Positions 7,312-19,130 of a stretch of 64,000 nucleotides of DNA are shown here, piece by piece. The position numbers and the translations under genes are program-made. The stretch is from the NCBI RefSeq assembly GCF_004138325.1, contig NZ_SBLB01000005.1, positions 496,001 to 560,000 of the forward strand, given 5' to 3'. Below the pieces are notes generated by a model, which saw nothing but the letters and a program-made list of their open reading frames with translations, had not been told where the DNA came from and searched no databases. This DNA is from Spirosoma sordidisoli. GTDB taxonomy: Bacteria; Bacteroidota; Bacteroidia; Cytophagales; Spirosomataceae. Positions within the stretch are counted from its first letter, which is position 1; every line of letters begins with the position of its first letter.

Positions 7312-7353
7312 ACAACTATAGTAACGAACAAATACCCCCAAAATGTCTCCCCT

Positions 7354-7544
7354 GTAGAGACGCGATCCCTCGCGTCTCACATGCGTCAGCCATTGGTTTC
7401 GCGTCTCACATGCGTCAGCCATTGGTTTCGCGTCTCACATGCGTCAGCCATTGGTTTCGCGTCTCCTATGCGTCAGCCATTGGTTTCGTAGGAAAATTGG
7501 CTGGCACCCAGGAGACGCGAGGGCCGGTGCGATCGCGTCTCTAC
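7354..7544. repeat. Four 29-bp tandem units inside nested inverted repeats
   Basis: The core is four copies of a 20-base unit starting at 7381, 7410, 7439 and 7468, joined by 9-base GCGTCTCAC or GCGTCTCCT spacers, giving an exact 29-bp period. The core is bracketed by two nested inverted pairs: GTAGAGACGCGATC at 7354-7367 pairs with 7531-7544, and CCTCGCGTCTC at 7368-7378 pairs with 7512-7522. Open frames across it are repeat-driven and not coding. It lies between divergent gldG and the 7712 gene, and shares GTAGAGACGC with the hairpin at 2722-2773. Confidence 0.9.
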
Positions 7545-14026: not shown

Positions 14027-14123
14027 CGGCGTTCAGGGGCACAAACAGGCGCCGAAGATGGTTATACGTTAAGTCTAATTGGCAGGTGTACCCCGAGCAA
14101 GGCGGCTCACCTTCTTCACACGC

Positions 14124-15119
14124 ATGAAACTATCGCAGGAAGTAAAAGTTGGTTTACTGGCTGTCGTCTCGCTGATGATGCTTTATTTCGGATTCGAGTT
14201 CTTGAAAGGGTCCGATTTCTTTTCCAATAACCGAACCTATCAGGTCATCTACGACAACGTAGACGGGCTGACATCCTCTAATCCCGTAAGGATCAACGGG
14301 TTGTCGGTTGGGCAGGTCAAATCAATCGATATTCTTCAGGATCAGGGTAATAAGCTGCTGGTAACGGTGGAGCTGAAAAACGACATCCGGGTTACGCAGG
14401 GCTCGCAGGCTATCCTGGCCGACGATGGGCTGCTGGGCGGCAAATCGATTCGGCTGGTCGTTAAACCCGGCACGCCCCAGCTGGAAGAAGGTGGTCAGCT
14501 GGTCGCTACCAAAGAAACCGGCCTGACAGCTCTTATCCGCGAAAAAACCCTGCCGGTGCTCAACAACGTCGACTCGCTGACGTACCAGCTCAATCGGGTG
14601 GTGGCTCAGTTTGACCAGACGGGCGTTGTGCTGAACAAGACACTCAACAGTGCCAATGCCGCCGTTGGTACGCTCGACCTCACCATTGCCGAGAACCGCG
14701 CTGGCCTCCGAACCACGCTCGCCAATGTGAACCGGCTGTCGGCTTCGCTGATCGAGACGGAACGCCAGCTCAAGCCTATTCTGGCCAAAGCCGATACGTT
14801 TGCCGACTCGCTGCAGGGCCTGCAGCTGAAGCAGACGCTCGGCAGCGTGAACAAAACCGTCGACAACCTGCAGCGGATTCTGGGCGACATCAACAACGGT
14901 CGGGGTTCGCTGGGTAAACTGGCGTCTGATGAGCAGCTGTACCGGAATGTAAACGCTACGACCGCCAGCCTCGAAAAACTCCTGACCGACCTGCGCGAGA
15001 ACCCCAAGCGCTACGTCCATTTCTCGCTCTTCGGCCGCAAAGATAAAACCGGCACGGCCACCGGGACGCAGCCCACCAGCACAACAGACGTCACCAGCCA
15101 GGCCGATTCTACCAAGTAG
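14124..15119 (+). CDS. MlaD/MCE family lipid-transport protein
   Basis: MCE proteins are the periplasmic lipid-binding parts of Mla-type ABC transporters that move phospholipids between membranes. From the ATG at 14124 the protein has 331 residues: a single N-terminal membrane helix (VGLLAVVSLMMLYFGFEFL), the MCE domain (YQVIYDNVDGLTSSNPVRINGLSVGQV, then ILADDGLLGGKSIRLV) and a long helical tail rich in leucine, asparagine and threonine. The start MKLSQEVKVG is the usual Bacteroidota form, and the frame upstream begins with TTG. No mlaE or mlaF partner lies beside it here. The 3' side is the large repeat array. Confidence 0.9.
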   Translation: MKLSQEVKVGLLAVVSLMMLYFGFEFLKGSDFFSNNRTYQVIYDNVDGLTSSNPVRINGLSVGQVKSIDILQDQGNKLLVTVELKNDIRVTQGSQAILADDGLLGGKSIRLVVKPGTPQLEEGGQLVATKETGLTALIREKTLPVLNNVDSLTYQLNRVVAQFDQTGVVLNKTLNSANAAVGTLDLTIAENRAGLRTTLANVNRLSASLIETERQLKPILAKADTFADSLQGLQLKQTLGSVNKTVDNLQRILGDINNGRGSLGKLASDEQLYRNVNATTASLEKLLTDLRENPKRYVHFSLFGRKDKTGTATGTQPTSTTDVTSQADSTK

Positions 15120-15159
15120 AGCACAGCGCAGGCCGTTCCATCATGCCACCCCTTCCATG

Positions 15160-15755
15160 GCCTCAACCGCATAGCGTCGGTAGAGGTTGAGGTACGACGG
15201 CGCCCGCAAGACCATGGCCCGTCAGGGCCCATACCGCGCAGCGTCGGTAGAAACCGACGGGCGCATGACCAGGCGACCAGGCCCGTCAGGGCCTATACAG
15301 CGCAGCGTCGGTAAAATCGGTGGGCACCCGCAGGATCAGGCCCGTCAGGGCCTATACAGCATAGCGTCGGTAAAATCGGCGCGCCCACCCGATCTATGGC
15401 CCGTTAGGGCCTATACAGCGTAGCGTCGGTAGAAATTAACGCCCCACCCGCATGACCAAGGCCCGTAGGGCCTACACAGCGTAGCGTCGGTAGGGCGATG
15501 CATCCAATATTTCATGAGCCGTCAGGTATACCACCGCGATTGTGATGTACCTGACGGCTCATGTGCCGGGTTAACCCTAAACATTGCTGATCAATTTCTA
15601 CCGACGCTGCGCTGTATAGGCCCTGACGGGCCTGGTCGTACGGGTGGGCCGCCGATTTCTACCGACGCTGCGCTGTATGGGCCCTGACGGGCCTGGTCCT
15701 GCGGGTGCCCGTCGATTTCTACCGACGCTGCGCGGTGAAGGCCCTGACGGGGCAT
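15160..15755. repeat. Convergent arrays of a ~60-bp repeat around a central hairpin
   Basis: The marker AGCGTCGGTA occurs at 15173, 15240, 15304, 15363, 15422 and 15483 on the plus strand, spaced 67, 64, 59, 59 and 61 bases. Its reverse complement occurs at 15599, 15660 and 15720, spaced 61 and 60. Each unit joins a GGCCCGTCAGGGCC near-palindrome, a TATACAGCG link, the marker and a more variable GC-rich stretch. The two sets face each other across a 16-bp perfect hairpin. The block fills the space between the convergent MCE and VPS10 genes. No protein-coding gene is supported in it. Confidence 0.92.
15513..15563. repeat. Central 16-bp hairpin of the repeat array
   Basis: Arms 15513-15528 and 15548-15563 are perfect reverse complements with a 19-base loop. 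The arm contains CCGTCAGG, echoing the core of the flanking units, so it may be a related or seed element or a bidirectional terminator. Confidence 0.75.
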
Positions 15756-15769
15756 TCGTTGGAAATCCG

Positions 15770-18700
15770 TTAGTTAACCAGGACAACGCCCTTGTCTTTG
15801 GCCATCTGGTTGATGCGCATGAGGTTGGTTTCTATGGTCATTTTGAGCTTCCCCAGCTGGGCGTCCACTTCCTGCGTGAGCTGACTACGAACCTCTTCGC
15901 CCTGTTTGGTTGGGCGGAAGTCGCCCTGGGCCTGCTCGCTCATGAGGTGCGCCAGCCGGTTGTTGAGCTTGATACCGTAGTTGAGCGGGTCCTGCACACT
16001 CATGTTCCTGGTCTGGTGAATGTCGTTCTCGATGGTCTTGAGCTCGTCTTCAAACTTCTTAATGACGTCGTTTATGTCTTTGTTCTTCTCGTCGGACCCC
16101 ATCTTGTTTTTGAGATAGGTCAGGTCTTCCTTGATCTTCCGGAGGTTGATGATGCCTTCGTTGGCTTCCGTTACCTTGTTACGCACTTTCATCAGGAAAT
16201 CGAACTGGGCCTGATAGTCGGCCGGTGTCGTTTTCAGCCGGGGGTCTTTGAGGATCTCGAACGGCTGGGTCTGCGATTGCCCGTTTACCGTTAACCTGAC
16301 CTGGTAATTGCCCGGTACGGCTTTGGGACCGAGGTTGGGCGATCCGTAGAAGACCATACCGGGAAAGGTTTTATAGCCGGGGTAGCGCATGTCCCACACG
16401 AAACGGTCGCCCCCCGATTTGACTTTCAGCAGGTCGGCTTTTTCTTTCGCTTTCGTGCTGAACGAGCGGATCAAGGTACCGTTGCTTTCGAGAATGTCCA
16501 GCCTGACCTCCGCAGCCGGGTCAGTTTTTTTGATGAAGTAATGAATCATGACGCCGTTGGGGTGATTTTCGCCTTCGAGCTGCGCGTCGCGTTTGCTGGT
16601 ACCGGCCATGCGGTAGGTAGGCATCGGCTGGTAGAGAATGGCTTCTTTGGCGGCCAGGTCGCTCCTGAGCTGGTGCAGGGGCGTCAGGTCATCGATCAGC
16701 CAGAAGCTACGGCCGTGGGTGGCGGCAATGAGGTTATCGTTCTTGATGGCCAGGTCGTGGATGGGTACCGGAGGCAGATTAAGCTGAAGTTTCGACCAGC
16801 TCTCGCCATCGTCGAACGATACCCAGACGCCCCGCTCGGTGCCGGCATAGAGTAGTCCTTTTCGCTTCGGATCGGCCCGGACCACCCGAACAAACTCGTC
16901 TTTGGGAATCCCTTTGGTCATCACCGTCCAGGTTTTGCCGTAGTCCAGCGTCTTGTAGATGTAGGGCGTGTAATCGCCGAACTTGTACGAAGTAGCCGCC
17001 ACGTAAGCGCCCCCTTTCACGAACGGATTGACCTCCACCGAATTCATCATATTGTACTTCGGCGACACGGAGGGGGTAACGTTCTTCCAGGTTTTGCCGC
17101 CATCTATGGTGACATGGATCAATCCGTCGTCGGACCCCGTCCAGATTTCGCCTTCGGTATAGGGCGACTCGGTAGCGGCAAACACGTTGGCGTAGTACTC
17201 GGCACCCGTGTTGTCCTGCGTAATCGGCCCGCCCGACGATTTAATGGTTTCGGGCTCTCCCCGCGACAGATCGGGGCTGATCACCTCCCAGCTTTCACCA
17301 CCCGTGTAGCTGACGTGCAGATGGTTCGAGCCGGCATAAAGCTTTTTCGGGTTGTGCGGGCTGAAAAAGACCGGGTAATTCCAGTTGAAGCGGTATTTCA
17401 TGGCATCGGCTCCCGAACCGGCGGGCAGGTCGGGGTGTACGTTGGTAGACCGCTCCTGCCCGGTAGCCAGGTCCTGCATGGTCATGTAGCCTTTGTAGTC
17501 GCCCCCGAAAACGACCTCGCTGTTGAGCGGGTCGGGCGCCAGGTGGGCACTTTCGCCGATGGCCAGCGCTACCCAGTCTTTTTCGGTCACGGAAGCGCTG
17601 CCCGTCCGGTGCGAAATCCGGACGCTGGAGTTGTCCTGCTGGGCGCCGTAGATGCGGTACGGGAAATGGTTATCGGTCGAAACGCGGTAGAACTGCGCCG
17701 TTGGCTGGTTGTGGTAAGTTGTCCAGTGGTTGCCGCCATCGGTCGAGACCTGAGCGCCCCCGTCGTCGGCAATCGCCATGCGCTGGTTGTTGGTCGGGTC
17801 GATCCAGAGGTCGTGATGGTCGCCATGGGGCGCATTTTTCAGCTCGAAGGTTTTACCACCGTCTTTCGATACGCCGTAGCTGACGTTCATGACGTAGACA
17901 ATATCCTCGTTCTGCGAGTCGGCATAGATGCGGCAGTAGTACCAGGCCCGTTGCAGCAGCGCGCGGTCCTGATTGATGCGGGCCCAGGTTTTGCCGGCAT
18001 CGTCGGACCGATAAACCCCGCCAGCGTCTTTGTTTTCGATGATGGCCCAAACCCGGCTGGAGTTTTTGGGAGATACCGTTACGCCGATGATGCCGTTGAT
18101 ACCCGAGGGCATGCCCGACTTATCGGAGAGGTTTTCCCAGGTGTCGCCCCCGTCGGTACTTTTCCAGAGTTTGGAGTCGGGCCCGCCACTGTCCATCCGG
18201 TAGCCGTTGCGTTTCATGTTCCAGGTGCTGGCGTACAGGATGCGCGGATTATTAGGGTCGAGCACCAGATCGGCAGCGCCCGCCTGATCGTTGATGTACA
18301 GGACTTTTTTCCAGGTCTGCCCCCCGTCGGCACTGCGAAAAATACCCCGCATCTCATTGGGTTTCCAGAGGTTGCCCATGGCCGCTACGTAGACCAGGTC
18401 GGGGTTTTTGGGGTGAATACGGATGCGGGCAATGTGTTTCGAATCGGTCAGGCCGATGCGTTTCCAGCTGGTGCCGGCGTCGGTCGATCGCCACATTCCC
18501 GTACCCGAAGCCACGTTGTTGCGCAGGGTCTGCTCGCCTTCGCCCACGTAAATCACGTTGGGGTCGCTCTCGGCCACGGCCACCGCGCCAATGCTCCCGC
18601 CGAAGTAGGCATCGCTGATGTTTCCCCAGGTTTGGCCGCCGTCGGTTGTTCGCCAGACGCCCCCGCCAACGGTGCCCATGTAATACAGATTGGGGTTGCC

Positions 18701-18877
18701 GGTCACGCCCGTAACGGTACAGGAGCGCCCACCCCGAAACGGACCCAGCTCCCGCCAGCGCAGCCCCTCGTAGGTGGCCGGGTCGAAGGAGACCGTTGCC
18801 GGTGTCTTTGGCGATTGGCTGTAGACAAACTGGCTAACAAACAGCGAGAGGAAAACGTAAAGGAAAGGTGGCTTCAT
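15770..18877 (-). CDS. Secreted VPS10/sortilin-like BNR-repeat protein
   Basis: This 1035-residue protein starts with a signal peptide (FLYVFLSLFVSQFVYSQ). The body is a beta-propeller made of BNR/Asp-box repeats such as TTDGGQTW, STDAGTSW, SADGGQTW, STDGGDTW, SDDAGKTW and SKDGGKTF, as in sortilin VPS10 domains and exo-acting glycosidases. A C-terminal stretch of about 150 residues is rich in charged helices. The family in Bacteroidota is large and poorly characterised; binding or hydrolysis of glycans or proteins cannot be decided. I chose the ATG at 18877 because the signal peptide begins there. The stop abuts the repeat array. Confidence 0.88.
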   Translation of the reverse strand: MKPPFLYVFLSLFVSQFVYSQSPKTPATVSFDPATYEGLRWRELGPFRGGRSCTVTGVTGNPNLYYMGTVGGGVWRTTDGGQTWGNISDAYFGGSIGAVAVAESDPNVIYVGEGEQTLRNNVASGTGMWRSTDAGTSWKRIGLTDSKHIARIRIHPKNPDLVYVAAMGNLWKPNEMRGIFRSADGGQTWKKVLYINDQAGAADLVLDPNNPRILYASTWNMKRNGYRMDSGGPDSKLWKSTDGGDTWENLSDKSGMPSGINGIIGVTVSPKNSSRVWAIIENKDAGGVYRSDDAGKTWARINQDRALLQRAWYYCRIYADSQNEDIVYVMNVSYGVSKDGGKTFELKNAPHGDHHDLWIDPTNNQRMAIADDGGAQVSTDGGNHWTTYHNQPTAQFYRVSTDNHFPYRIYGAQQDNSSVRISHRTGSASVTEKDWVALAIGESAHLAPDPLNSEVVFGGDYKGYMTMQDLATGQERSTNVHPDLPAGSGADAMKYRFNWNYPVFFSPHNPKKLYAGSNHLHVSYTGGESWEVISPDLSRGEPETIKSSGGPITQDNTGAEYYANVFAATESPYTEGEIWTGSDDGLIHVTIDGGKTWKNVTPSVSPKYNMMNSVEVNPFVKGGAYVAATSYKFGDYTPYIYKTLDYGKTWTVMTKGIPKDEFVRVVRADPKRKGLLYAGTERGVWVSFDDGESWSKLQLNLPPVPIHDLAIKNDNLIAATHGRSFWLIDDLTPLHQLRSDLAAKEAILYQPMPTYRMAGTSKRDAQLEGENHPNGVMIHYFIKKTDPAAEVRLDILESNGTLIRSFSTKAKEKADLLKVKSGGDRFVWDMRYPGYKTFPGMVFYGSPNLGPKAVPGNYQVRLTVNGQSQTQPFEILKDPRLKTTPADYQAQFDFLMKVRNKVTEANEGIINLRKIKEDLTYLKNKMGSDEKNKDINDVIKKFEDELKTIENDIHQTRNMSVQDPLNYGIKLNNRLAHLMSEQAQGDFRPTKQGEEVRSQLTQEVDAQLGKLKMTIETNLMRINQMAKDKGVVLVN

Positions 18878-19130
18878 AGAACGTATAGATTGAGGACAGG
18901 AAATCATAAATAGCTTACACAGAGCTGGTCTTTATAATTTTATTAAACTTAACAATTGTCTATAATTTAATCTGATATCAATCTGTATTTCATTATTTTA
19001 TATTGAAAAATCTATAAAAATCAAAATATGATGGCTGTCGGCTTGGCGGCTCGGCTTGCTGTTGATCGTACGTCGTTACGGACCGCCGGTGTTGGAGACG
19101 GCAACAACTCGCTTACTTTAGGGTTTTCTA

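Follow-up and report, generated by a model that had tools for sequence, protein, structure and literature searches.

The window, a 64,000-nt stretch of Spirosoma sordidisoli DNA, carries two facing arrays of a short repeat between an MlaD/MCE-domain gene and a Sortilin-Vps10/BNR-repeat gene, and their convergent setting was confirmed. A sequence-only reading had placed the marker AGCGTCGGTA at nine sites, six direct and three inverted, around a central hairpin, and we found the marker at each of them. Units were scored with R1, a sequence-only model built from 40 units that contains no base pairs, since loops of 3 nt and 4 nt fall out of register when aligned. The features of the locus are as follows.

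14079 to 15119, plus strand: left neighbour, MlaD/MCE-domain gene (context only)
15159 to 15183, plus strand: unit 1, a relic with the tail AGCGTCGGTAG and no intact head (R1 22.3 bits, model positions 14-38)
15213 to 15250, plus strand: unit 2, head hairpin and tail (R1 41.8 bits)
15278 to 15313, plus strand: unit 3 (R1 44.1 bits)
15337 to 15372, plus strand: unit 4 (R1 40.8 bits)
15396 to 15432, plus strand: unit 5, loop GTTA (R1 46.0 bits)
15458 to 15493, plus strand: unit 6, 3-nt loop GTA (R1 41.0 bits)
15513 to 15563, no strand: central hairpin, similar to the inner heads (CCGTCAGGTA) that facing pairs have in relatives (arms and folding)
15598 to 15634, minus strand: unit 7, inverted (R1 46.3 bits)
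15659 to 15695, minus strand: unit 8, inverted (R1 44.9 bits)
15719 to 15754, minus strand: unit 9, inverted (R1 41.2 bits)
15770 to 18907, minus strand: right neighbour, Sortilin-Vps10/BNR-repeat gene (context only)

With up to one mismatch allowed, AGCGTCGGTA matched the window 16 times against a shuffle mean of 4.03 (100 shuffles, maximum 9), and Tandem Repeats Finder reported two separate arrays, one of period 59 at 15195-15493 and one of period 61 at 15594-15751. The central hairpin proved to be as first described, with a perfect 16-bp outer part; its 22-nt arms (15513-15534 and 15542-15563) are 91% complementary, and its folding energy as DNA (-20.2 kcal/mol) was equalled by 0 of 200 shuffles. 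Read from its letters, this hairpin is two tail-less unit heads set face to face in inverted orientation. The near-palindrome ascribed to every unit was present in most heads, with loops that vary (GTCA, GTTA, GTA); it was not intact in the relic at 15159-15183, and some other heads are imperfect as palindromes.

Elsewhere in the window, at 7353-7540, a 29-bp tandem repeat (4.1 copies, 7370-7488) lies beside a GTAGAGACGCGATCCCTCGCGTCTC hairpin that has GTAG directly 5' of its stem and resembles, by eye, a canonical GTAG-REP. The window seems on this visual comparison to contain two kinds of REP, the GTAG-REP-like element at 7353-7540 and the facing arrays.

Each unit consists of a hairpin head, GGCCC-GTCA-GGGCC, and a conserved tail whose last bases are GTAG. 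The head has a 5-bp stem and a loop of 3-4 nt, the conserved core of about 36 nt runs from the head through three variable bases into ACAGCGCAGCGTCGGTAG, and GTAG lies 17 nt past the stem in the window's family. The rest of the ~60-bp period is spacer, alike within one array and unlike between arrays, a pattern that local growth of each array from a founder would produce. Among 123 distinct units (76 with a four-base and 47 with a three-base loop), stem sequence varied with pairing retained: 67 were GGCCC/GGGCC, 27 GTCCC/GGGAC and 5 GTGCC/GGTAC (with one G-T pair), GGTCC/GGACC and GCCCC/GGGGC occurred once each, and the stems of about a dozen units were not fully paired. The 17-nt linker, longer than the 9 nt of most other families, suggests a gain of 8 nt, because ACAACATCGGTAG near the G037 gene (locus L058) compares with ACAACAGCGCAGCGTCGGTAG in the window's family. 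A CRISPR array was rejected on the repeat layout, in which spacers are alike within arrays, orientation switches and spacing varies, and a plain satellite was likewise considered and dropped.

The sequence-only reading had proposed a search for the unit across the whole genome and related genomes. In the 7.37-Mb own genome (G000), R1 placed units at 114 sites at E up to 0.1, nearly all grouped and the weakest scoring 17 bits. Since scoring covered 150 of the 6777 candidates from a first look, this is a lower bound. The marker 10-mer occurred 133 times against 17 for its reversed control, some of the single matches not being units. The family is thus made up of dispersed intergenic short palindromes, many in inverted pairs, as are REPs and REPINs in the broad sense. 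Two arrays on contig C27 (30039-30303 and 250334-250541) had equal scores and spacing, one being inner and the other at the contig end, and are perhaps an assembly overlap or a contig-breaking repeat.

Three Y1_Tnp matches were found in the own genome. The first is an intact gene (C22:95202-95660) set among units of the window's family, at 94970-95007 (+) upstream and 95712-95757 (-) downstream with further units upstream, so that a cognate Y1 gene is flanked by its own unit family, again as in REP/REPIN systems broadly defined. The 153-aa protein carries DHVH, WQ and YIDAQEEHH, which fits TnpA-Y1 subclass 1.2, a group of ~148-aa proteins from Cyanobacteria and Bacteroidetes with the signature DH[IV]H, WQ and Y---Q--HH (PMC6006769). 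It has YIDAQ and no Y--NP motif of a class 2 RAYT or TnpA-REP, and it scored 37 bits against NCBIfam REP_Tyr_transpos (cut-off 80 bits) and above the cut-off of NCBIfam transpos_IS200. Both HUH histidines and the tyrosine were invariant in a 14-sequence alignment, and the nearest named relatives are from Bacteroidota (Cytophagales). The closest solved structures by sequence were the transposase chains 2xm3 and 2xma, which we take to be the ISDra2-type transposase (ISDra2). The gene is single-copy and so is no near-identical multi-copy element with tnpA of the IS200/IS605 kind, and a protein search of plasmids found no close relative (all 123 records below 60% identity).

The second subclass 1.2 gene (C1:1993993-1994394; L033 1420-1854) is 34-35% identical to the C22 gene and is surrounded by a different hairpin family, CGGCATNNATGCCGACGCTA. 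It matched 64 times in the own genome and 38 times in the sister species G007, compared with 0-2 times in four genomes lacking such a gene (0-1 for the reversed control), some sites being counted on both strands owing to the palindromic core. The third Y1 gene looks like an ordinary IS200 gene, and neither hairpin family was found in the 1.6 kb read around it.

Across genomes of the genus, family and order, units were found in 14 of 79 including the own genome, that is, in 13 of the 78 others. All seven other genomes of the genus with a full-length relative of the transposase at 70% identity or more had at least 7 units (7 to 50), and the remaining 28 had 0 to 4, none of them reaching 5. Five of those 28 lower-identity genomes had 1-4 units, among them G008 with 4 units and only a broken Y1 remnant. 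Outside the genus, 12 units were found in G042 (another genus, 59% identity) and none, within the 79-genome search, in G037 (70% identity across part of the protein). In G000, G007 and G012 the Y1 gene is flanked by units left and right, and in G016 and G035 units adjoin it. We attach no probability to this co-occurrence because the 70% cut was chosen after the table was seen, the genomes are related by descent, and low counts are minimum values (up to 84 candidates scored per genome under strict filters). The GTCGC family had 10-23 matches in four genomes with its cognate gene, 4 in G042 and 0 in three other genomes (reversed control 0-2), and the dispersal result draws on three families, the window's, GTCGC and CGGCATNNATGCCGACGCTA.

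Aligning the two flanks of each gene for inverted repeats discriminated poorly, since related loci were mixed in the control pairings (99th percentile 134.5), and a test of spacing was used instead. At 40 loci of related genes, hairpin density within 500 bp was 6.4 per kb versus 1.5 per kb at 3 kb or more and exceeded its own expectation at all 40, an increase that the more frequently intergenic near flanks may alone produce. This bias leaves the spacing peak of RTAG unaccounted for. An open 5-mer count beside the hairpins brought up TGTAG, GTAGA, TAGAA and TATAG, and RTAG was found exactly 9 nt past the end of the 5-bp stem 87 times, against an expectation of 4.3 derived from hairpins far from the genes at those loci. 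RTAG peaked again at 17 nt (22 versus 4.1), mainly through the window's family and close relatives. At their best positions, seven other tetranucleotide patterns gave 2 to 22 near matches versus the 87 of RTAG at 9 nt (raw counts include [CT]TAC 22 at 27 nt, [GA]TCG 21 at 13 nt and GCAG 12 at 8 nt). At least one 9-nt unit lay within ~500 bp of 25 of the 40 genes versus 27 of 800 random placements in the same DNA, and two or more lay near 21 of 40 versus 0 of 800; these loci are not independent, at least eight falling into two groups whose members are 90-96% similar in DNA over kilobases. At 10 of the 40 loci, units with 9-nt and with 17-nt spacing were both absent within ~500 bp, and at 6 there was no unit at 8-11 or 17 nt. 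Y..Q..HH, in the form Y[IV]xxQxxHH, was present in all 40 relatives and DH[VIL]H in 36.

The same geometry appeared in a further set of 80 loci from named records of a separate collection, the best 80 of at least 588, which were found by protein alone, had no 90%-identity DNA over 200 bases in common with the earlier loci and contained no near-identical pair. Here RTAG occurred 175 times at 9 nt versus 6.4 expected and 35 times at 10 nt versus 7.4; a 9-nt unit was present at 61 of 80 loci and an 8-11-nt unit at 72, and at the 19 and 8 loci lacking them some flanks are cut by contig ends. As a control, 9 loci had a 9-nt case at a distance of 2 kb or more. Y..Q..HH was found at 77 of the 80 loci. 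The records are mostly from Bacteroidota (Flavobacterium, Mucilaginibacter, Dyadobacter, Algoriphagus, Pedobacter, Chitinophagaceae and Bacteroidales), with a few metagenome bins labelled otherwise. A profile of the 61 loci, in which RTAG itself was the selection criterion, read GTCCC-GTTA/GTA-GGGAC, then an A/T-rich stretch with T at positions 5 and 7, then GGTAGAAA.

Around eight subclass-1.1-like genes (8 of 11 loci), RTAG stood at 9 nt once in 54 windows. Class-2-type Y1 genes of the genus (17 of 21 loci; L305, L306, L310-L327) showed a mild excess of RTAG, their 198 windows containing 7 cases at each of the spacings 9 and 10 nt. These class-2-type genes are also hairpin-rich nearby (5.87 per kb).

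We then compared the layout of units at 20 loci, of which 16 or 17 came from relatives. A strict pattern for a facing pair of units enclosing two inner heads (U-h-h-U) matched 5 of the 20, three of these without further units; at L151 it missed one end, and on reading both ends were present. Inner heads lay 26 nt apart at 9 of the 20 loci. In G032 the same order holds with the Y1 gene placed between the inner heads, which suggests that the facing arrays may be gene-less counterparts of that layout with the outer units multiplied. The opposite, outward order also occurs (L039, L043), and facing pairs of the GTCGC family lay 109-124 bp apart at 9 occurrences. At L157 (G012:C20), inverted GTGAATTCGGGATTA motifs stand outside the facing pair at about 1329-1345 and 1546-1563, and a sequence similar to GTGAATTCGGGATTA recurs to the left of other facing pairs.

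The site between the MCE and VPS10 genes differs among relatives. The MCE protein was matched in 36 genomes; of the 30 loci retrieved, 6 had VPS10 within 1.5 kb, and units were present at three of these six. G007, the sister species, has MCE and VPS10 proteins ~99% identical to those of the own genome; there, where the own genome has the array, a single unit is followed by a palindromic join, CGTCCGCAAGACCATGGTCTTGCGGACG (L121, G007:C17, after the MCE gene), which may be a deletion scar between inverted units. G035 carries two facing units with a single inner head, and in the three other syntenic genomes nothing in the MCE-VPS10 gap matched the unit pattern. In G011, two stretches downstream of the MCE gene fit the pattern but are, on reading, not units.

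Eight more sites shared with the sister, the fully matched ones of 9 own-genome arrays searched and 13 prepared, gave own/sister pattern counts of 5/3, 5/3, 5/0, 8/1, 3/1, 6/1, 13/1 and 10/1, with R1 finding two units in the sister at the last of them. Closely related species thus differ in array length at the same fixed sites. The 9 array sites compared with G007 are all shared and differ in unit number, with no new insertion seen among them, and so give better evidence of local amplification or loss than of transposition.

At the right end of IS200/IS605 elements, in the IS608 geometry, a hairpin is followed downstream by a tetranucleotide. The order of hairpin and tetranucleotide in our units resembles such an IS200-type right end, and the nearest structures (2xm3 and 2xma) likewise point to this group (IS608, ISDra2). 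Unlike IS200/IS605 elements, a single gene copy is here accompanied by many dispersed gene-less repeats. REP/BIME sequences with TnpA-REP (RAYT) enzymes, the GTAG superfamily, are short intergenic palindromes of tens to more than 100 copies (PMC3733652, PMC6006769, PMC8266576) that occur singly, as inverted pairs and in clusters, each family tied to one flanked Y1 gene, and our repeats are alike in these respects. In canonical REPs, which go with class 2 enzymes, GT[AG]G lies at the foot of the hairpin on its 5' side (PMC6006769 and PMC3733652), whereas the units here have RTAG 3' of the hairpin, at 9 nt or, in the window's family, at 17 nt, and their enzyme has YxxxQxxHH in place of the YxxNP motif of class 2. 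A canonical GTAG REP was accordingly rejected, the tetranucleotide being on the wrong side of the hairpin. CGTC-tagged REPs, which PMC3733652 reports from Bacteroidetes among others and without a known dedicated transposase, were considered since the tail holds CGTC and rejected by stem and foot, having 8-9 bp stems that start with AT pairs and a CGTC foot, in contrast to the 5-bp GC-rich stems of our units.

REPINs are inverted doublets regarded as the likely mobile unit, and evenly spaced tandem arrays of them are reported (PMC3116915); we observed both arrangements, with the difference that a pair here often encloses an inverted tail-less head pair (U-h-h-U) and that arrays may face each other. 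Subclass 1.2 has the REP entry 'no' in Table 1 of PMC6006769, which describes typical IS200 ends as generally absent; our protein fits the signature of that subclass, yet the genes here carry cognate repeats. Recognition of single-stranded DNA hairpins is described for IS200/IS605 and TnpA-REP enzymes (PMC8266576 and PMC6006769). A search of the open literature, with most subscription papers outside its scope, found no description of these repeats or of subclass 1.2 REPs. The earlier view that no known repeat explains the arrays thus holds for their architecture and not for their way of working, which is that of REP, BIME and REPIN systems.

Could the repeats instead be kept for transcription, terminating it in both directions or forming a barrier between convergent genes, so that the link to the transposase is a by-product? 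By a simple ORF rule, 9 of 15 arrays in the own genome lie between convergent ORFs, and the central hairpin is very stable; against this, 4 arrays lie between divergent and 2 between co-directional ORFs, and the two terminator-like sites in 14900-15950 both fall at 15047-15064, outside the array. The same gap has one unit in the sister species and no unit-pattern match in three syntenic relatives, and a role in transcription leaves both the fixed GTAG spacing and the gene link unaccounted for, so we consider it unlikely. Still less probable is that the units make a structured or repeat RNA, an idea of the sequence-only reading that gained no positive support. Stem variation with pairing kept and the G-T pair of the GTGCC/GGTAC type would suit an RNA, but no Rfam family reached its gathering score at 7 loci, unit number and orientation differ between sister species, no promoter-like site was found by the sigma-70 consensus (which may not suit this phylum), and the associated enzyme is one that acts on single-stranded DNA. 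An RRE match in the window, at 25 bits against a threshold of 104, was taken as chance.

We give equally little credence to the idea that the repeat is a MITE belonging to an ordinary DDE transposase and adjoins Y1 genes by chance. The short inverted GTGAATTCGGGATTA motifs that flank the facing pair at L157, and the similar sequence left of others, are what such an element might show; by eye, however, the motif is absent at the right end of L151 and L158, and unit families differ from gene to gene and track the Y1 gene across genera. The sequence-only reading had allowed for a local accident if the unit occurred nowhere else. Simple tandem duplication and inversion with no wider meaning is refuted as a complete explanation by the dispersal in the own genome and the units in 13 of 78 others, even though the different array lengths in sister species show that local duplication or loss does occur.

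We conclude that the arrays are probably clustered hairpin repeats, REP-like and non-autonomous, with the C22 subclass 1.2 Y1 (HUH) transposase as their cognate enzyme. The proposal of a mobile palindrome family expanded by amplification was borne out as to dispersal, association with a Y1 transposase and differing array length at sites common to sister species; its mobility is something we infer, as neither excision nor cleavage nor a fresh insertion was observed. If it acts like the IS200/IS605 and TnpA-REP enzymes, the transposase would bind the hairpin head in single-stranded DNA, and the downstream RTAG would be all or part of a cleavage or recognition site, as at IS200/IS605 right ends. 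The enzyme would spread facing pairs in the order unit, head, inverted head, inverted unit. One such pair would have entered the MCE-VPS10 gap, and its outer units would then have been copied in tandem, at ~60 bp, on each side, giving two facing arrays with a palindromic centre. The best reading is a variant of REP/REPIN-transposase systems that was amplified locally into arrays, a new variant because the tetranucleotide is on the other side of the hairpin and the enzyme is of class 1.

Beyond this locus, we lean slightly towards the view that subclass 1.2 Y1 transposases and hairpin-9 nt-RTAG repeats form a phylum-wide REP system of Bacteroidota, separate from class 2 RAYT/GTAG-REP, in which the recognition or cleavage tetranucleotide lies downstream as at an IS200 right end and facing arrays are amplified non-autonomous products. 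If true, this would assign a function to transposases whose subclass has been described as neither an insertion sequence nor linked to REPs, and would explain one class of hairpins found between genes in many Bacteroidota genomes. A simple rule, consisting of a 5-bp stem, loop, stem, 9 nt and RTAG, would then predict the binding and cleavage substrate of one small protein.
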